Origin: an uncultured Methylophilaceae bacterium
Lineage (GTDB): Bacteria > Pseudomonadota > Gammaproteobacteria > Burkholderiales > Methylophilaceae
Direction of reading: 5' to 3'
Assembly: GCA_903870995.1 (NCBI GenBank)
Contig: CAIQFD010000008.1
Span: 1 to 64,000, forward strand
DNA: 64,000 nucleotides
The notes under the pieces were generated by a model. That model did no database searches, had not been told where the DNA came from, and saw nothing but the letters and a program-made list of their open reading frames with translations. Made by a program: the position numbers and the translations under genes. Each line of letters begins with the position of its first letter. The stretch's first letter is position 1. Positions 29-6,562 of the stretch are shown here, one piece after another.

Positions 29-113
29 TGGTGGAGGGGGAAGGATTCGAACCTTCGTACTCTGAGAGAACGGATTTACAGTCCGTCGCCTTTAACCACT
101 CGGCCACCCCTCC
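29..113 (-). tRNA. tRNA-Tyr (anticodon GUA)
   Basis: Minus strand reads GGAGGGGTGGCCGAG...CGGACTGTAAATCCG...GGTTCGAATCCTTCCCCCTCCACCA; long variable arm and encoded CCA. Confidence 0.96.
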
Positions 114-127
114 AAACCGAACCCGAG

Positions 128-156
128 ATTATGCAGATATTCGCAGTCAGTGTCAA
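128..156 (-). promoter_or_regulatory. Sigma70-type promoter for tRNA-Tyr
   Basis: Minus strand TTGACA (151-156), 17 bp spacer, CATAAT (128-133), followed by GC-rich discriminator CTCGGG. Confidence 0.7.
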
Positions 157-203
157 TGCCAATATTACGTATTCATGTGACTTTTATATACGTACCATCT
201 ACG

Positions 204-1364
204 TCACTTAAGATTGGGTGGCTTAAGCTCTGGGTAAGCTTTAACGTATATCTCCAAATCAGGATCTAGCGTGTTCCAATTGATAGTTCTTGCGACCATC
301 TTGTAAATAAAATTCACCACTGAGTTTCTATGTTGGCAGTAATTACTTAAGGGGACCATCTCATTGCCCAATTCAATCTTTGGTGCATAGCCAGTTTGCC
401 CACTTTGAATTGAAGTTGCGCCCACACTATAAGACCACTCAACTGCGGCGTCCCAAAGCCTAAAATACAAGAACCATTCTTTTGGCTGACTATAATCAAT
501 ACCAATAAACTTATTCACCACATGCTCACCAAGCTTGAAACAGAGCATAAAAGACAGCATCTCTTTGGATTGGTTTTTCCGCAGAACGACATAATAAGAA
601 TTCTCATGTCGAGATATCTCATTAAAGAATTGACGGTTCAACTGCTCGAATTTCGTATTCCCTTTTTCGTAGGTCTGCCAAAACAAACCAAATATCTCAT
701 CCATCACATCCGTACTTGGCTGGGCAATCACCTCTACATAAACCGGCGCTTCGTTTGCCTGTTTCATCTTCTTTTTCAGCTTATTCCGACGCGAAGCCTT
801 TAGCGAGGCCACATAGTCATTTTTACTTTTACCATCCAAACGCAAGCTAGTCCCAGGAAAACTGACGAGATGGAATAAGCTACCATCCTTCAATAAAGGA
901 TTTAGCGCAGATCCTTGATCATCTGCAAAATCCTTCCAAACGCGCATCGTTGCGCCTAGCGCATCTGCCTGAATACGCATTGATTTATTGATGCACGCAA
1001 AAATCTCAAATACATCTTGCCCTGACACACAGCCAACTCGTCCCTCATCACTACATGGCGAGCCAATAAAGAAAGTGCGCTGATAAAGCAAGGAAGGGAA
1101 AATCTTACCCAATACACTAAATACAGGCAGCAGCGCTGGGGGAATCACTAATGCAATTGGCACATCCATTAAAAATGCTGGCGCAATCGCCACTGGTTTA
1201 TTGTTATATGAAACGAGTCCATACATAAACTTGAATTGGTCATCTAAGCCTGCACGCTCTAGTGCCGCATACCACCACTTACCTTCGTAAGGCGCAGCAA
1301 AGCATTTCTGCCATAGATCCTCAGGAATATCCTCCACCGACTGATGCCACTCTATTTTATACAT
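204..1364 (-). CDS. FemAB/GNAT-like acyltransferase family protein
   Basis: ORF 204..1415; internal Met (MYKIEWHQSV) at 1364 overlaps the upstream gene's stop and is the more plausible start; C-terminal GNAT/peptidoglycan-recognition-like fold by family resemblance. Confidence 0.6.
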   Translation of the reverse strand: MYKIEWHQSVEDIPEDLWQKCFAAPYEGKWWYAALERAGLDDQFKFMYGLVSYNNKPVAIAPAFLMDVPIALVIPPALLPVFSVLGKIFPSLLYQRTFFIGSPCSDEGRVGCVSGQDVFEIFACINKSMRIQADALGATMRVWKDFADDQGSALNPLLKDGSLFHLVSFPGTSLRLDGKSKNDYVASLKASRRNKLKKKMKQANEAPVYVEVIAQPSTDVMDEIFGLFWQTYEKGNTKFEQLNRQFFNEISRHENSYYVVLRKNQSKEMLSFMLCFKLGEHVVNKFIGIDYSQPKEWFLYFRLWDAAVEWSYSVGATSIQSGQTGYAPKIELGNEMVPLSNYCQHRNSVVNFIYKMVARTINWNTLDPDLEIYVKAYPELKPPNLK

Positions 1365-2598
1365 GTGATACTTGCTCCGAAATAACGTCGCATATTTTAG
1401 CGAAATCTCGCTCACTCAACCAAACGCAATTCGTCACAATCAAGGTTTTTGAAGCGAATGCCTGAGCATTAGGGATGTTGGCTTCTAGAAAGTAAGGTGT
1501 CAAATAACCATAATCTTTTAACGCATGGATAAATAGCCGACCTACGCCTAAACCTTTATTCCAGAGCTGTTTCAGAACAGCATCACGGACCACTTCAGTC
1601 GGCATTAATAAAATAAAGAATGGCCATACACCCTCACCACCTACAATGTCATGCATTACCTGAACGTTTGGAATTTTCTTTAATTGCTTCAACCGATTTT
1701 CAGCCAACAATTTCGTTTGCCCAATAAAACTTGGCAAACGATTCGCCGCATTCGCACCAACAAACTTGCGCCAAGCACCCACCTGATGCAGTGGAAACGT
1801 AAAGCTGCAGTCATCTCCCACCGCTTGAATTAAATTGCCTCGTTTCAACTTGCGCCTTAAATGATGTCCAAATGCCAACCCCATTCCAACAGGTCGATAA
1901 AGCATGTAATAGCCAGCCAACTCCACAATGCGTCGCGCTTCCAAGAAACGTTTAGACGGTAGTGCACCACTTGTCCGTCTCAAAGCCTCTCGAAGCATTG
2001 GGTTTTCACTCACAACACAACCGCCAGCAAATATTGTGAGTCCTTTGCCAACGCCTAAACTAAAAAATCCTATATCACCAAATCTGCCAACAGCTTTGTC
2101 ATTCAAATGAGCCCCCATCGACTGCGCGGCATCCTCAATCACGAAAGCACCAACATTCCTTGCAATGGCTATTGTTTTTTGAACATCGGCCACGCGCCCA
2201 GCAAGATGGGTATGAACGACAGCCAACGTTTCATTATTAACGACAGTTTTAAGAGCGCTTTCACAAAAGTCAAAATGACCTGGGCGTGAGTCGGCAAGAA
2301 CTGGAATGAGGTTCGCTTTAAGCACTGCAAGGGCAACCCAAGGACACGTGTAAGCACTAATCACTACATACTTTCTGTCACTTAATGTTTTTATGGCCTC
2401 TAATGCGACGACCAATGCTGCCGTTCCAGAACATTCAATCTGAACCTCATCAACGCCAATAAAATCGGCAATTTTTTGCTCAAGAGAGTGTTTAGGGTTA
2501 CGGGAAAAAATCTGGGGAATAAAGTCACGCCAAGAGAGCGCTAAACCAGCTGTAGGAGATGCTTCAGTGATTTTCAACATTTTCTTGCTCAGCCTCAC
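1357..2598 (-). CDS. DegT/DnrJ/EryC1/StrS-family PLP-dependent aminotransferase
   Basis: ORF 413 aa; ECSGTAALVVALEA, VIEDAAQSMGA, and FFSLGVGKGLTIFAGG with the PLP lysine retained. Confidence 0.85.
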   Translation of the reverse strand: MRLSKKMLKITEASPTAGLALSWRDFIPQIFSRNPKHSLEQKIADFIGVDEVQIECSGTAALVVALEAIKTLSDRKYVVISAYTCPWVALAVLKANLIPVLADSRPGHFDFCESALKTVVNNETLAVVHTHLAGRVADVQKTIAIARNVGAFVIEDAAQSMGAHLNDKAVGRFGDIGFFSLGVGKGLTIFAGGCVVSENPMLREALRRTSGALPSKRFLEARRIVELAGYYMLYRPVGMGLAFGHHLRRKLKRGNLIQAVGDDCSFTFPLHQVGAWRKFVGANAANRLPSFIGQTKLLAENRLKQLKKIPNVQVMHDIVGGEGVWPFFILLMPTEVVRDAVLKQLWNKGLGVGRLFIHALKDYGYLTPYFLEANIPNAQAFASKTLIVTNCVWLSERDFAKICDVISEQVSHV

Positions 2599-2959
2599 TA
2601 AAGCTCAAACAGATAATACCGATCACAATTAATAAAGCCCCAACAATTTGCATGGGCGCAAGTCGGTCTCCAAAATAAACAGCCGAAACAACCAAGACCA
2701 AGACCACCTCTAGGTGGGATGCGGCGAAGGCTGGGCCGACCGGCGCGTGTTTGAGCAATGTCATCCATGCAACAAATGAGCCCAAATAACCCAAAACAGC
2801 ACCATATATCCAAGGCTGAGAGAATATGGATAAGAACCAATCCAAGTGCATGACAAAATCACCACCATGGTTTGAAGCCAGCTTAAACGATATCTGCGTC
2901 AAGGTGTCGCATAACATTAAGGCGGAAAAACCAATCATATAGAATCTGGTTTTTTTCAT
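2564..2959 (-). CDS. Small EamA/SMR-like (ArnE/ArnF-type) membrane protein
   Basis: 131 aa, four hydrophobic segments; GPAFAASHLEVVLVLVVSAVYFGDRLAPMQIVGALLIVIGI typical of single-domain EamA. Confidence 0.75.
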   Translation of the reverse strand: MKKTRFYMIGFSALMLCDTLTQISFKLASNHGGDFVMHLDWFLSIFSQPWIYGAVLGYLGSFVAWMTLLKHAPVGPAFAASHLEVVLVLVVSAVYFGDRLAPMQIVGALLIVIGIICLSFSEAEQENVENH

Positions 2960-3318
2960 GCATACAACCCAACAAAAATAACGCCAATTGTTATTAAGGC
3001 CATCCCCATTAATCGCATACGATCCAATCGTTCCTTAAAGACCAATCGACCTGCGATAACAATAGACACCATATTGATTGCGCCCAATAACACGCCCTGG
3101 GACAAAGATAGCACTGAAAGAAAAGCTAGCCAAACGACAAATTCGAGACAGAAACAAACAATCCCAACCCACAAAGGAAATGAGCCGAACATAGATTTCC
3201 AGCGTTTAATTTCTGTTGATTCTTGTTGATCAGCTGTCGCAGCAAACTTAAGCGCAACGTGCCCAACGGTATCGAGTGTTACATTGATAACCCAAATTAA
3301 AATCGCGATTGATGACAA
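2956..3318 (-). CDS. Small EamA/SMR-like (ArnE/ArnF-type) membrane protein
   Basis: 120 aa, TTG start; four hydrophobic segments; FKERLDRMRLMGMALITIGVIFVG typical of EamA C-terminus; 4-nt overlap with next gene. Confidence 0.75.
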   Translation of the reverse strand: MSSIAILIWVINVTLDTVGHVALKFAATADQQESTEIKRWKSMFGSFPLWVGIVCFCLEFVVWLAFLSVLSLSQGVLLGAINMVSIVIAGRLVFKERLDRMRLMGMALITIGVIFVGLYA

Positions 3319-3346
3319 TAGATTTAGCTTAGGGTGATTAAGGGGG

Positions 3347-3422
3347 TGGTGCCGAATGTCGGAATCGAACTGACGACCTTCGCATTACAAGTGCGCTGCT
3401 CTACCAACTGAGCTAATTCGGC
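3347..3422 (-). tRNA. tRNA-Thr (anticodon UGU)
   Basis: Minus strand GCCGAATTAGCTCAGTTGGTAGAGCAGCGCACTTGTAATGCGAAGGTCGTCAGTTCGATTCCGACATTCGGCACCA; canonical cloverleaf. Confidence 0.97.
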
Positions 3423-4556: not shown

Positions 4557-5267
4557 TTAGTGTATATCTTTCCAGAATTCTTTTTTCAAATAGTATGTCA
4601 GTACAAACAATAGGCCCAAAAAGGCCAGCACCAATAAACCAAGATGCTTGTCACGTTCTTTATATGGCTCAGCCATAAAGACTAAATAGTTAACCAAATC
4701 TGCGATTGTCTCATCGTATTCTGCCGGCGTCATCGTACCTTGCTTCTCAAGCACTAAGTGATGTGTTTCAGTTTTTTCATCAACCTTTAATACTTGCTCA
4801 CCTTGCAAACTCCAAAGGACGTGCGGCATTGCAACTTTGTCGTAAACCACATTATTCCAACCCGTAGGTCGCGTATCATCACGGTAAAAACCGCGTAAAT
4901 AACTATAAAGCCAATCTGCACCGCGCGCACGAGCCTCAACTGACAAATCTGGAGGCGTTGCACCAAACCAAGCTTTAGCATCGGCTTTTTGGATAGCAAC
5001 AGTCATCGTGTCGCCAACCTTTTCACCAGCAAACATTAAGTTTTCTTTGATTTGTGCATCAGTTAAACCAATATCTTGCAAACGGTTATATCGCATATAG
5101 GCTGCGCTATGACAATTTAAGCAATAGTTAACAAACACTTTTGCGCCGCGCTGCAATGAAGCTTGGTTATTAGGATCGATAGGCGCATGGTCAAGCTTCA
5201 CGCCTTCGTTTGCTATTACCGTTAAAGGTAATAGCAAGGCTAAAACAAATAAAAATTTAGTTTTCAT
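4557..5267 (-). CDS. petC: Ubiquinol-cytochrome c reductase cytochrome c1
   Basis: CLNCHSAAYMRYNR heme motif, C-terminal TM anchor; petABC order. Confidence 0.95.
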   Translation of the reverse strand: MKTKFLFVLALLLPLTVIANEGVKLDHAPIDPNNQASLQRGAKVFVNYCLNCHSAAYMRYNRLQDIGLTDAQIKENLMFAGEKVGDTMTVAIQKADAKAWFGATPPDLSVEARARGADWLYSYLRGFYRDDTRPTGWNNVVYDKVAMPHVLWSLQGEQVLKVDEKTETHHLVLEKQGTMTPAEYDETIADLVNYLVFMAEPYKERDKHLGLLVLAFLGLLFVLTYYLKKEFWKDIH

Positions 5268-6562
5268 TATGCTGTTACCCTTTCTGGCACTGGCTTAGTC
5301 TTATCTTTTTTGGTGTACCAAGGCATCAAGGCAAAGAATGAGAAGTAAACCAAACTAAAGATTCTCGCTACAACTGTTGCACGATCTGCACCACCAACAA
5401 TCAATGTCTCAGGTGAAAACTGACCCCATACGTTTGATGGCTCAGTACCCAAGTAACCCAAGATTACAAAGCTCACCACAAAAGCTGCCAGCCATTTTTT
5501 ATATAAAGTACCGCGATAGCGAATTGATTTCACTGGACTACGATCTAGCCAAGGCAAGAACGCGAAGCTCACCACTGACAAGCCCATCGCAGCCACTCCA
5601 GGGAACTGTGAGTTCAAAATTGGCGGTACTGCGCGCAAGATTGAATAGTAAGGTGTGAAATACCAAACTGGTGCAATATGCGGTGGCGTTTTCAATGGAT
5701 CTGCTGGGATAAAGTTATTTGCTTCAAGGAAATAACCGCCCATCTCAGGTGCAAAGAAAATAATCGCAGAGAACACAATCAAGAAAACTGACACGCCCAT
5801 TAAATCTTTAACGGTGTAGTAAGGATGGAATGCAATACCATCTAATGGAATGTGTGTTTTTGGATCTTTATGTTTTTTAATCTCAACACCGTCAGGATTA
5901 TTAGAGCCGACTTCATGCAATGCAATCAAGTGCGCAACAACAAGACCCAACAAAACTAGTGGCAAGGCAATCACATGGAATGCGAAGAAACGATTAAGCG
6001 TTGCATCAGAAACCGTGTAATCCCCACGCAACCAGAGCGAAATATCTGGACCGATGAATGGAATAGAAGTGAACAAGTTAATAATCACTTGCGCGCCCCA
6101 ATAAGACATTTGCCCCCAAGGCAATAGGTAGCCAAAGAACGCTTCTCCCATCAACACCAAGAAAATGCCTACACCAAACAACCAAATTAATTCGCGAGGC
6201 GCTTTGTAAGAACCATACATCAAGCCGCGAAACATGTGCAAATAAACAACCACGAAGAACATTGACGCGCCAGTGGAGTGCATATAACGAATCAAGCGAC
6301 CCCATGAAACATCTCGCATGATGTATTCAACTGAAGCAAAAGCTAACGAAGCCTCTGGCTTATAGTTCATGGTTAGAAAGATGCCCGTTAGAATTTGTAT
6401 CACTAAAACAAGCGTTGCTAATGCACCAAAGAAGTACCAAAAATTGAAATTCTTAGGTGCATAATATTCAGTGACATGCGCTTTAAGCGTTGAGCTCAAA
6501 GGAAATCGAGCATCAATCCAACCCAATAAGCCTTTAGAATCTTGTTGATTGCTGTTAGCCAT
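5267..6562 (-). CDS. petB: Ubiquinol-cytochrome c reductase cytochrome b
   Basis: 431 aa multi-TM; cytochrome b motifs incl. PPHIAPVWYFTPYYSILRAVP. Confidence 0.97.
   Translation of the reverse strand: MANSNQQDSKGLLGWIDARFPLSSTLKAHVTEYYAPKNFNFWYFFGALATLVLVIQILTGIFLTMNYKPEASLAFASVEYIMRDVSWGRLIRYMHSTGASMFFVVVYLHMFRGLMYGSYKAPRELIWLFGVGIFLVLMGEAFFGYLLPWGQMSYWGAQVIINLFTSIPFIGPDISLWLRGDYTVSDATLNRFFAFHVIALPLVLLGLVVAHLIALHEVGSNNPDGVEIKKHKDPKTHIPLDGIAFHPYYTVKDLMGVSVFLIVFSAIIFFAPEMGGYFLEANNFIPADPLKTPPHIAPVWYFTPYYSILRAVPPILNSQFPGVAAMGLSVVSFAFLPWLDRSPVKSIRYRGTLYKKWLAAFVVSFVILGYLGTEPSNVWGQFSPETLIVGGADRATVVARIFSLVYFSFFALMPWYTKKDKTKPVPERVTA

Follow-up and report, generated by a model that had tools for sequence, protein, structure and literature searches.

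A four-gene module in a tRNA cluster is one half of a larger bacterial gene set, possibly for a cationic envelope amine

What might two small transporter-like membrane proteins, an aminotransferase and a FemAB/GNAT-like protein make or move together? The question is raised by the start of a 64-kb stretch of DNA (the window), which runs from the first base onward of contig CAIQFD010000008.1 in the 1.7 Mb draft genome (G000) of an uncultured Methylophilaceae bacterium. Between the genes for tRNA-Thr(TGT) and tRNA-Tyr lie four minus-strand open reading frames (ORFs), EamA1, EamA2, DegT and FemAB/GNAT (Table 1), referred to here as locus A. A preliminary description had read them as a minimal four-gene pathway that aminates, acylates and flips a lipid-linked sugar or another small molecule. 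The flanking tRNA genes and the existence of a second locus had gone unnoticed in it. The present analysis places locus A as one half of a widespread set of about ten genes in bacteria that has apparently not been described before and is split over two loci in this genome. No published description of the cluster was found in the literature searched.

Two unlinked loci and one gene set

The four same-strand genes overlap at 2956-2959 (EamA1/EamA2, 4 bp), 2564-2598 (EamA2/DegT) and 1357-1364 (DegT/FemAB-GNAT). This arrangement, as first described, was confirmed by the ORF coordinates, and the assignments made then, of two EamA/small multidrug resistance (SMR)-like proteins, a DegT protein with its pyridoxal phosphate (PLP) lysine and a FemAB/GNAT protein, were borne out by Pfam and by the invariance of K185. 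The longest FemAB/GNAT ORF spans 204-1415 and opens at GTG 1415. Nevertheless, the start is most likely ATG 1364, as implied by the overlap with DegT and by the same start in homologues.

Co-conservation had been set beforehand as the test of whether these genes belong together. When it was run, the four genes were 67-91% identical in same-genus genomes, with their order kept, and EamA1-EamA2-DegT stood side by side at 76 of the 80 named loci, which were retrieved via DegT and so give no estimate of how often the remaining genes occur without it. The conservation of locus A is far beyond chance. The four exceptions all belong to a single lineage ('Ca. Methylopumilus' with its relatives), in which DegT has as its neighbor a gene for outer-membrane efflux or for an RND pump; one genome of this lineage, examined in full, has a divergent EamA pair within the operon of a class III aminotransferase (AT3).

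AT3 is also one of five partner genes found elsewhere in the window's own genome. Locus B (G000:C18:1712-6205) encodes a HAD phosphatase, AT3, an alpha/beta hydrolase, an acyl carrier protein (ACP) and a FabF-type ketosynthase (KAS). Locus A and locus B are separated by about 320 kb in G020, a complete sister genome. Both halves stand in a single cluster in other Methylophilaceae genera, Novimethylophilus, many Rhodanobacteraceae, Xanthomonas sacchari and some Acidobacteria/Thermoanaerobaculia. This large cluster joins EamA1-EamA2-DegT to the MtnX-like HAD phosphatase, AT3, hydrolase, ACP, KAS and FemAB/GNAT genes. Frequent additions are an arginase-fold protein, a two-component system of the PmrAB type and a pump of the ABC-HlyD-TolC or RND kind. 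With five partners in locus B that cluster with locus A genes elsewhere, the idea of a minimal four-gene pathway was given up. De novo clustering of flanking ORFs revealed no additional gene that is conserved throughout the set. In the window's genus, a gene of the UDP-glucose/GDP-mannose dehydrogenase family follows KAS in locus B (L144 522-1778).

Smaller and rearranged versions were also found. Roseomonas plasmids, bat Bartonella plasmids and Pigmentiphaga carry cluster subsets in which ACP and KAS are not beside EamA1-EamA2-DegT. A version lacking DegT, with the order HAD-AT3-arginase-EamA1-hydrolase-(ACP-KAS)-FemAB-EamA2, occurs in Methylophilaceae (G001, G104, G007 and G083) and on several rhizobial and agrobacterial plasmids. 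ACP and KAS are absent from the rhizobial clusters, some of which have a fatty acid desaturase in the operon and in some cases also a cyclopropane fatty acid (CFA) synthase, then a MipA/OmpV gene. The two-component regulators adjacent to the clusters scored best against the PmrA, TctD and QseB/QseC models, all below cut-off. The arginase-fold family was considered as a decayed homologue and this was rejected: its aligned metal-ligand motifs GSGDxHH, DNHPDN and SIDKD are conserved, so that it is probably active. Its closest solved match, a 3-guanidinopropionase, is weak (E = 0.0075).

The two halves occur in the same genomes. In a phylum-wide sample of 398 genomes, the DegT subfamily was present in 13 and AT3 in 28, and 13/13 DegT carriers were also AT3 carriers (hypergeometric p = 4.5e-17, with no correction for relatedness and with the window's own genome counted in). 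The DegT/AT3 overlap in the family sample was 17/21 (p = 2.7e-9, likewise uncorrected and including the own genome). Moreover, both halves have decayed together in the sister genome G049. Its DegT gene is split by a frameshift (L042 1317-2557), and where the HAD-AT3-hydrolase-ACP-KAS operon is expected there is a HAD remnant of 58 aligned residues (L149 9534-9707), with no AT3, hydrolase, ACP or KAS at that place. The same-genus genome G037 is without both loci. These genomes are drafts, and a lone frameshift might reflect an error in sequencing; the loss at locus B is independent of any such error in DegT. As the loci are unlinked, their joint retention and loss is good evidence for joint function.

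The DegT aminotransferase and the Arn comparison

The parallel drawn in the preliminary description was with ArnB and ArnE/ArnF of the 4-amino-4-deoxy-L-arabinose (L-Ara4N) pathway (E. coli arnBCADTEF). By this account, DegT would aminate a sugar and the EamA pair would flip the undecaprenyl-linked sugar. The two systems share paired small SMR-like proteins adjoining a DegT-fold aminotransferase with its PLP lysine, and a PmrAB-like regulator lies near many clusters. Also consistent with an aminosugar are a gene of the UDP-glucose dehydrogenase family next to locus B, a protein resembling ArnT (31% over 307 aa) that is encoded at another place in the genome, and an undecaprenyl-diphosphate phosphatase gene adjoining the Roseomonas clusters. 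However, the cluster differs from the arn operon in having ACP, KAS, AT3 and the HAD phosphatase. Among its conserved genes there is no glycosyltransferase and no ArnA, ArnC, ArnD or ArnT, ArnC and ArnD not having been searched genome-wide, and the ArnA matches in the window's own genome are only about 30% identical and are separate formyltransferase-like and SDR-like proteins. A Trichoderma random barcode transposon sequencing (RB-TnSeq) paper (PMC10516422) that came up in the literature searched concerns the ordinary arn operon.

The DegT protein belongs to a distinct subfamily, the hallmark of which is an N-terminal ExPPTAGLPL motif. All 13 of the diverse homologues compared keep the PLP lysine K185 as well as Asp156, Gln159 and Ser180. 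The protein scored 56-66 bits with the WecE and ArnB models of sugar aminotransferases, compared with cut-offs of 435 and 631 (ArnB NF008658: 65.6 bits, cut-off 631). The closest solved relatives are 2-deoxy-scyllo-inosose aminotransferases (2c7t and 5w71), in a match that covers the N-terminal half only. DegT is also accessory to the conserved core and dispensable. In the sister genome G076 the module consists of EamA1-EamA2-FemAB, from which DegT has been cleanly lost while AT3 and HAD are kept, and clusters without DegT are otherwise complete and retain the EamA pair. The counterpart of ArnB is therefore a part that the system can lose, which weakens the analogy.

The transporter side of the parallel did not hold either. 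The EamA pair scored 21-29 bits against the ArnE and ArnF models (cut-offs 92 and 99), and the structural model of EamA2 lies nearest to EmrE/Gdx. E. coli ArnE/ArnF have no acidic residue at the position of EmrE Glu14, whereas both EamA proteins keep an Asp there, in the first transmembrane helix (TM1). With DegT lost while the EamA pair stays, an L-Ara4N-like lipid-linked aminosugar is improbable. From the original interpretation, amine chemistry combined with a paired transporter and a FemAB-type transferase remains, as a co-conserved set that, on sequence grounds, most probably acts on an envelope amine; the completeness of the four genes and the close ArnB/ArnE/ArnF parallel do not.

Transporter, transferase and candidate product

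Pfam EamA matched both EamA1 and EamA2 above cut-off. EamA1 has 23% identity to EmrE in the alignment, and the AlphaFold2 (AF2) model of EamA2, with a predicted local distance difference test (pLDDT) score of 87, consists of four long helices. The best PDB matches of this model were EmrE and Gdx-Clo (TM-score about 0.6, probability 1.00), with weak E values of 0.015 and above. Asp16 and Lys24 of EamA1 were found in 96/96 aligned homologues, and Asp18 and Lys26 of EamA2 in all 97 of its homologues; the TM1 Asp of each protein aligns with EmrE Glu14. The pair thus has in common with EmrE, Gdx and MdtI/MdtJ the four-helix fold and an acidic TM1 residue followed by Lys, and with MdtI/MdtJ the paired genes. 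It differs from them in the replacement of Glu by Asp, in its biosynthetic-operon setting and in low identity.

According to a review of the family, guanidinium, drug and polyamine SMRs require the central Glu, in place of which lipid SMRs often have Asn, and in Gdx an alkyl tail reaches through a membrane portal (PMC9574504). In view of this role of the central acidic residue, and of the invariant TM1 Asp in both proteins, the EamA pair looks built for a cationic substrate. We infer both the EamA1/EamA2 heterodimer and its direction of transport. Paired SMR-like genes with acidic TM1 residues also resemble polyamine exporters (PMC9574504), and EamA1/EamA2 might be a plain metabolite or polyamine exporter like MdtI/MdtJ, with the enzymes adjacent by chance. 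Such an arrangement is highly improbable, given the contiguity with DegT in all but four of the retrieved loci and a pair that is kept in clusters without DegT, interleaved with the HAD, AT3, arginase-fold, hydrolase, ACP and KAS genes.

The FemAB/GNAT profile gave no match to PDB sequences. Its AF2 model (pLDDT 89.6) is predicted to have a fold of two fused GNAT domains, of the Fem/MprF kind. The best Foldseek match was FemX (2.4e-13), together with MprF-type lysyl- and alanyl-phosphatidylglycerol synthase (L-PGS/A-PGS) domains (2e-11 to 2e-10) and Sba18/Sbb17, recently solved aminoacyl-tRNA-dependent peptide synthases; TM-scores were near 0.5. Rows from annotated plasmid records were left out of the alignments used for structure prediction. 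On the modelled fold, the protein is a putative aminoacyl- or acyltransferase. As in MprF/LpiA, a double-GNAT Fem-like transferase is encoded with a membrane transporter, here in separate proteins. Unlike in MprF/LpiA, the transporter is a four-helix SMR-type pair rather than the MprF flippase domain, and extra biosynthetic genes are present.

FemAB/GNAT proteins of the clusters fall into at least two types, marked by QSGQTGYAPKIELGNE and by AGWTDPExKxxLGA, which set L024, L037, L063, L075, L096 and others apart from the window. The gene of the AGWTDPExKxxLGA type adjoins the arginase-fold gene, and the window's type does not.

The reading favored here, with a probability of roughly 45%, is a split two-locus pathway in which a cationic (lipo)amine is made, possibly aminoacylated and flipped through the inner membrane. 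It draws on the composition and conservation of the gene set, on the co-occurrence and joint decay of its halves and on the invariant residues, together with the modelled folds of FemAB/GNAT and EamA2. An amine-bearing head or backbone would be the work of AT3 and the HAD phosphatase. The acyl part would come from ACP and KAS or, in rhizobia, from the general pool of fatty acids, with a desaturase and a cyclopropane synthase dedicated to the pathway. FemAB/GNAT might then aminoacylate or acylate the amine; in some lineages DegT would put on a further amino group and the arginase-fold enzyme would hydrolyse another. The EamA1/EamA2 pair is predicted to move the cationic amphiphile across the inner membrane, with the paired TM1 Asp residues binding cation and proton. 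The rhizobial desaturase, CFA synthase and MipA/OmpV genes, the ACP and KAS genes and the PmrA/TctD/QseB-like regulators together suggest that a cationic amphiphile is placed in the envelope. The product would be a cationic lipid, the steps would follow this order and the role would be one of envelope protection.

Several observations weigh against this assignment. Of the variants seen, only the alphaproteobacterial ones have the desaturase and the CFA synthase, and neither an arginase-fold nor a two-component gene lies beside locus A or B in the window's genome. The FemAB/GNAT model also matches coenzyme A (CoA)-dependent tandem GNATs, and acetyl-CoA and myristoyl-CoA users are among the double-GNAT folds. 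Many clusters also have an ABC-HlyD-TolC or RND pump next to them, which would suit a secreted molecule as well.

A secreted amphiphilic amine is in fact the main rival: a small natural product such as an antibiotic, a metallophore or a signal, exported by the EamA pair and a pump and sensed by the two-component system. ACP, KAS and two PLP aminotransferases resemble a compact cluster for biosynthesis, many genomes have an ABC-permease/ATPase/HlyD/TolC or RND pump next to it, and its distribution is patchy, with carriage on plasmids. Nevertheless, the window's genus has no pump next to either locus, the rhizobial clusters do without ACP and KAS, and the rhizobial desaturase, CFA synthase and MipA/OmpV genes point to the membrane. 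A secreted product is possible, if on the unlikely side. Exosortase A (PEP-CTERM) gene sets also bring together an ACP, alpha/beta hydrolases, a PLP enzyme and a protein related to FemAB, and the hydrolase of the present clusters weakly matches TIGR03101; the conserved genes found at these loci include neither an exosortase nor an acyl-CoA ligase.

Beyond the envelope (lipo)amine itself, it is a rather doubtful proposal that the set is an undescribed, horizontally mobile pathway for a new class of cationic amino lipids, flipped by a dedicated Asp-using SMR-type pair, which would add a third way of making membranes less negative to those of L-Ara4N-lipid A and MprF. If the (lipo)amine reading is right, the set would be a widespread envelope pathway with carriers among soil and freshwater bacteria, plant-associated rhizobia, bat Bartonella and human-associated Roseomonas. 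The SMR family, poorly understood in its lipid-transporting branch, would also gain a flippase whose acidic residue is distinct. Versions with the two halves split or joined, and with or without DegT, ACP/KAS and the arginase-fold enzyme, offer a ready comparative design for a product search by lipidomics.

Insertion site and neighboring features

The module is an insert between tRNA-Thr(TGT) and tRNA-Tyr (window 29-3422). Relatives without the module at this place have tRNA-Thr(TGT), about 75-190 bp and then tRNA-Tyr, tRNA-Gly and tRNA-Thr(GGT). In G004, from a second genus of the same family, the module occupies the identical site with a 328-bp leader. In the window, tRNA-Tyr retains its own near-consensus promoter-like site just past the 3' end of the module, and a similar sequence precedes tRNA-Tyr in module-less genomes. 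As the gap between tRNA-Thr and EamA1 is short and no promoter-like site was found in its 28 bp, the module is probably co-transcribed with tRNA-Thr and driven from upstream of the tRNA gene. Its expression would then be steady and not stress-induced, in contrast to clusters with a two-component system. A phage origin of the module was considered and rejected, with just weak, unrelated DegT matches.

Table 1. Features of locus A and its flanks in the window
Feature	Position	Strand	Remarks
tRNA-Tyr (GTA)	29-113	-	downstream flank; tRNA-Gly and tRNA-Thr(GGT) then in relatives
Promoter-like site TTGACA-17-CATAAT before tRNA-Tyr	128-156	-	just past module 3' end
FemAB/GNAT protein, putative aminoacyl- or acyltransferase	204-1364	-	386 aa; FemAB_like 1e-7
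DegT/DnrJ/EryC1/StrS-fold PLP aminotransferase, distinct subfamily	1357-2598	-	413 aa; DegT_DnrJ_EryC1 8e-43 (PF01041)
EamA2, second single-domain EamA/SMR-like subunit	2564-2959	-	131 aa; Pfam EamA 1e-9
EamA1, single-domain EamA/SMR-like membrane protein	2956-3318	-	120 aa; TTG start; Pfam EamA 9e-9
tRNA-Thr (TGT)	3347-3422	-	directly upstream of module, 28 bp gap; same arrangement in sister genomes

Very large ORFs adjoining AT3 in some genomes were examined as pathway enzymes and rejected, being a duplicated UvrA-like protein or an FAD/Fe-S oxidoreductase instead. The UvrA-type frame, with duplicated domains and about 1,930-1,980 residues, stands beside AT3 in two genomes of one order (L191 14122-19899 and L194 3008-8959). 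The gene for a DUF2147 protein, a possible further member of the system, adjoins EamA2 in two distant lineages (L147 4665-5102; L182 about 5152-6285).

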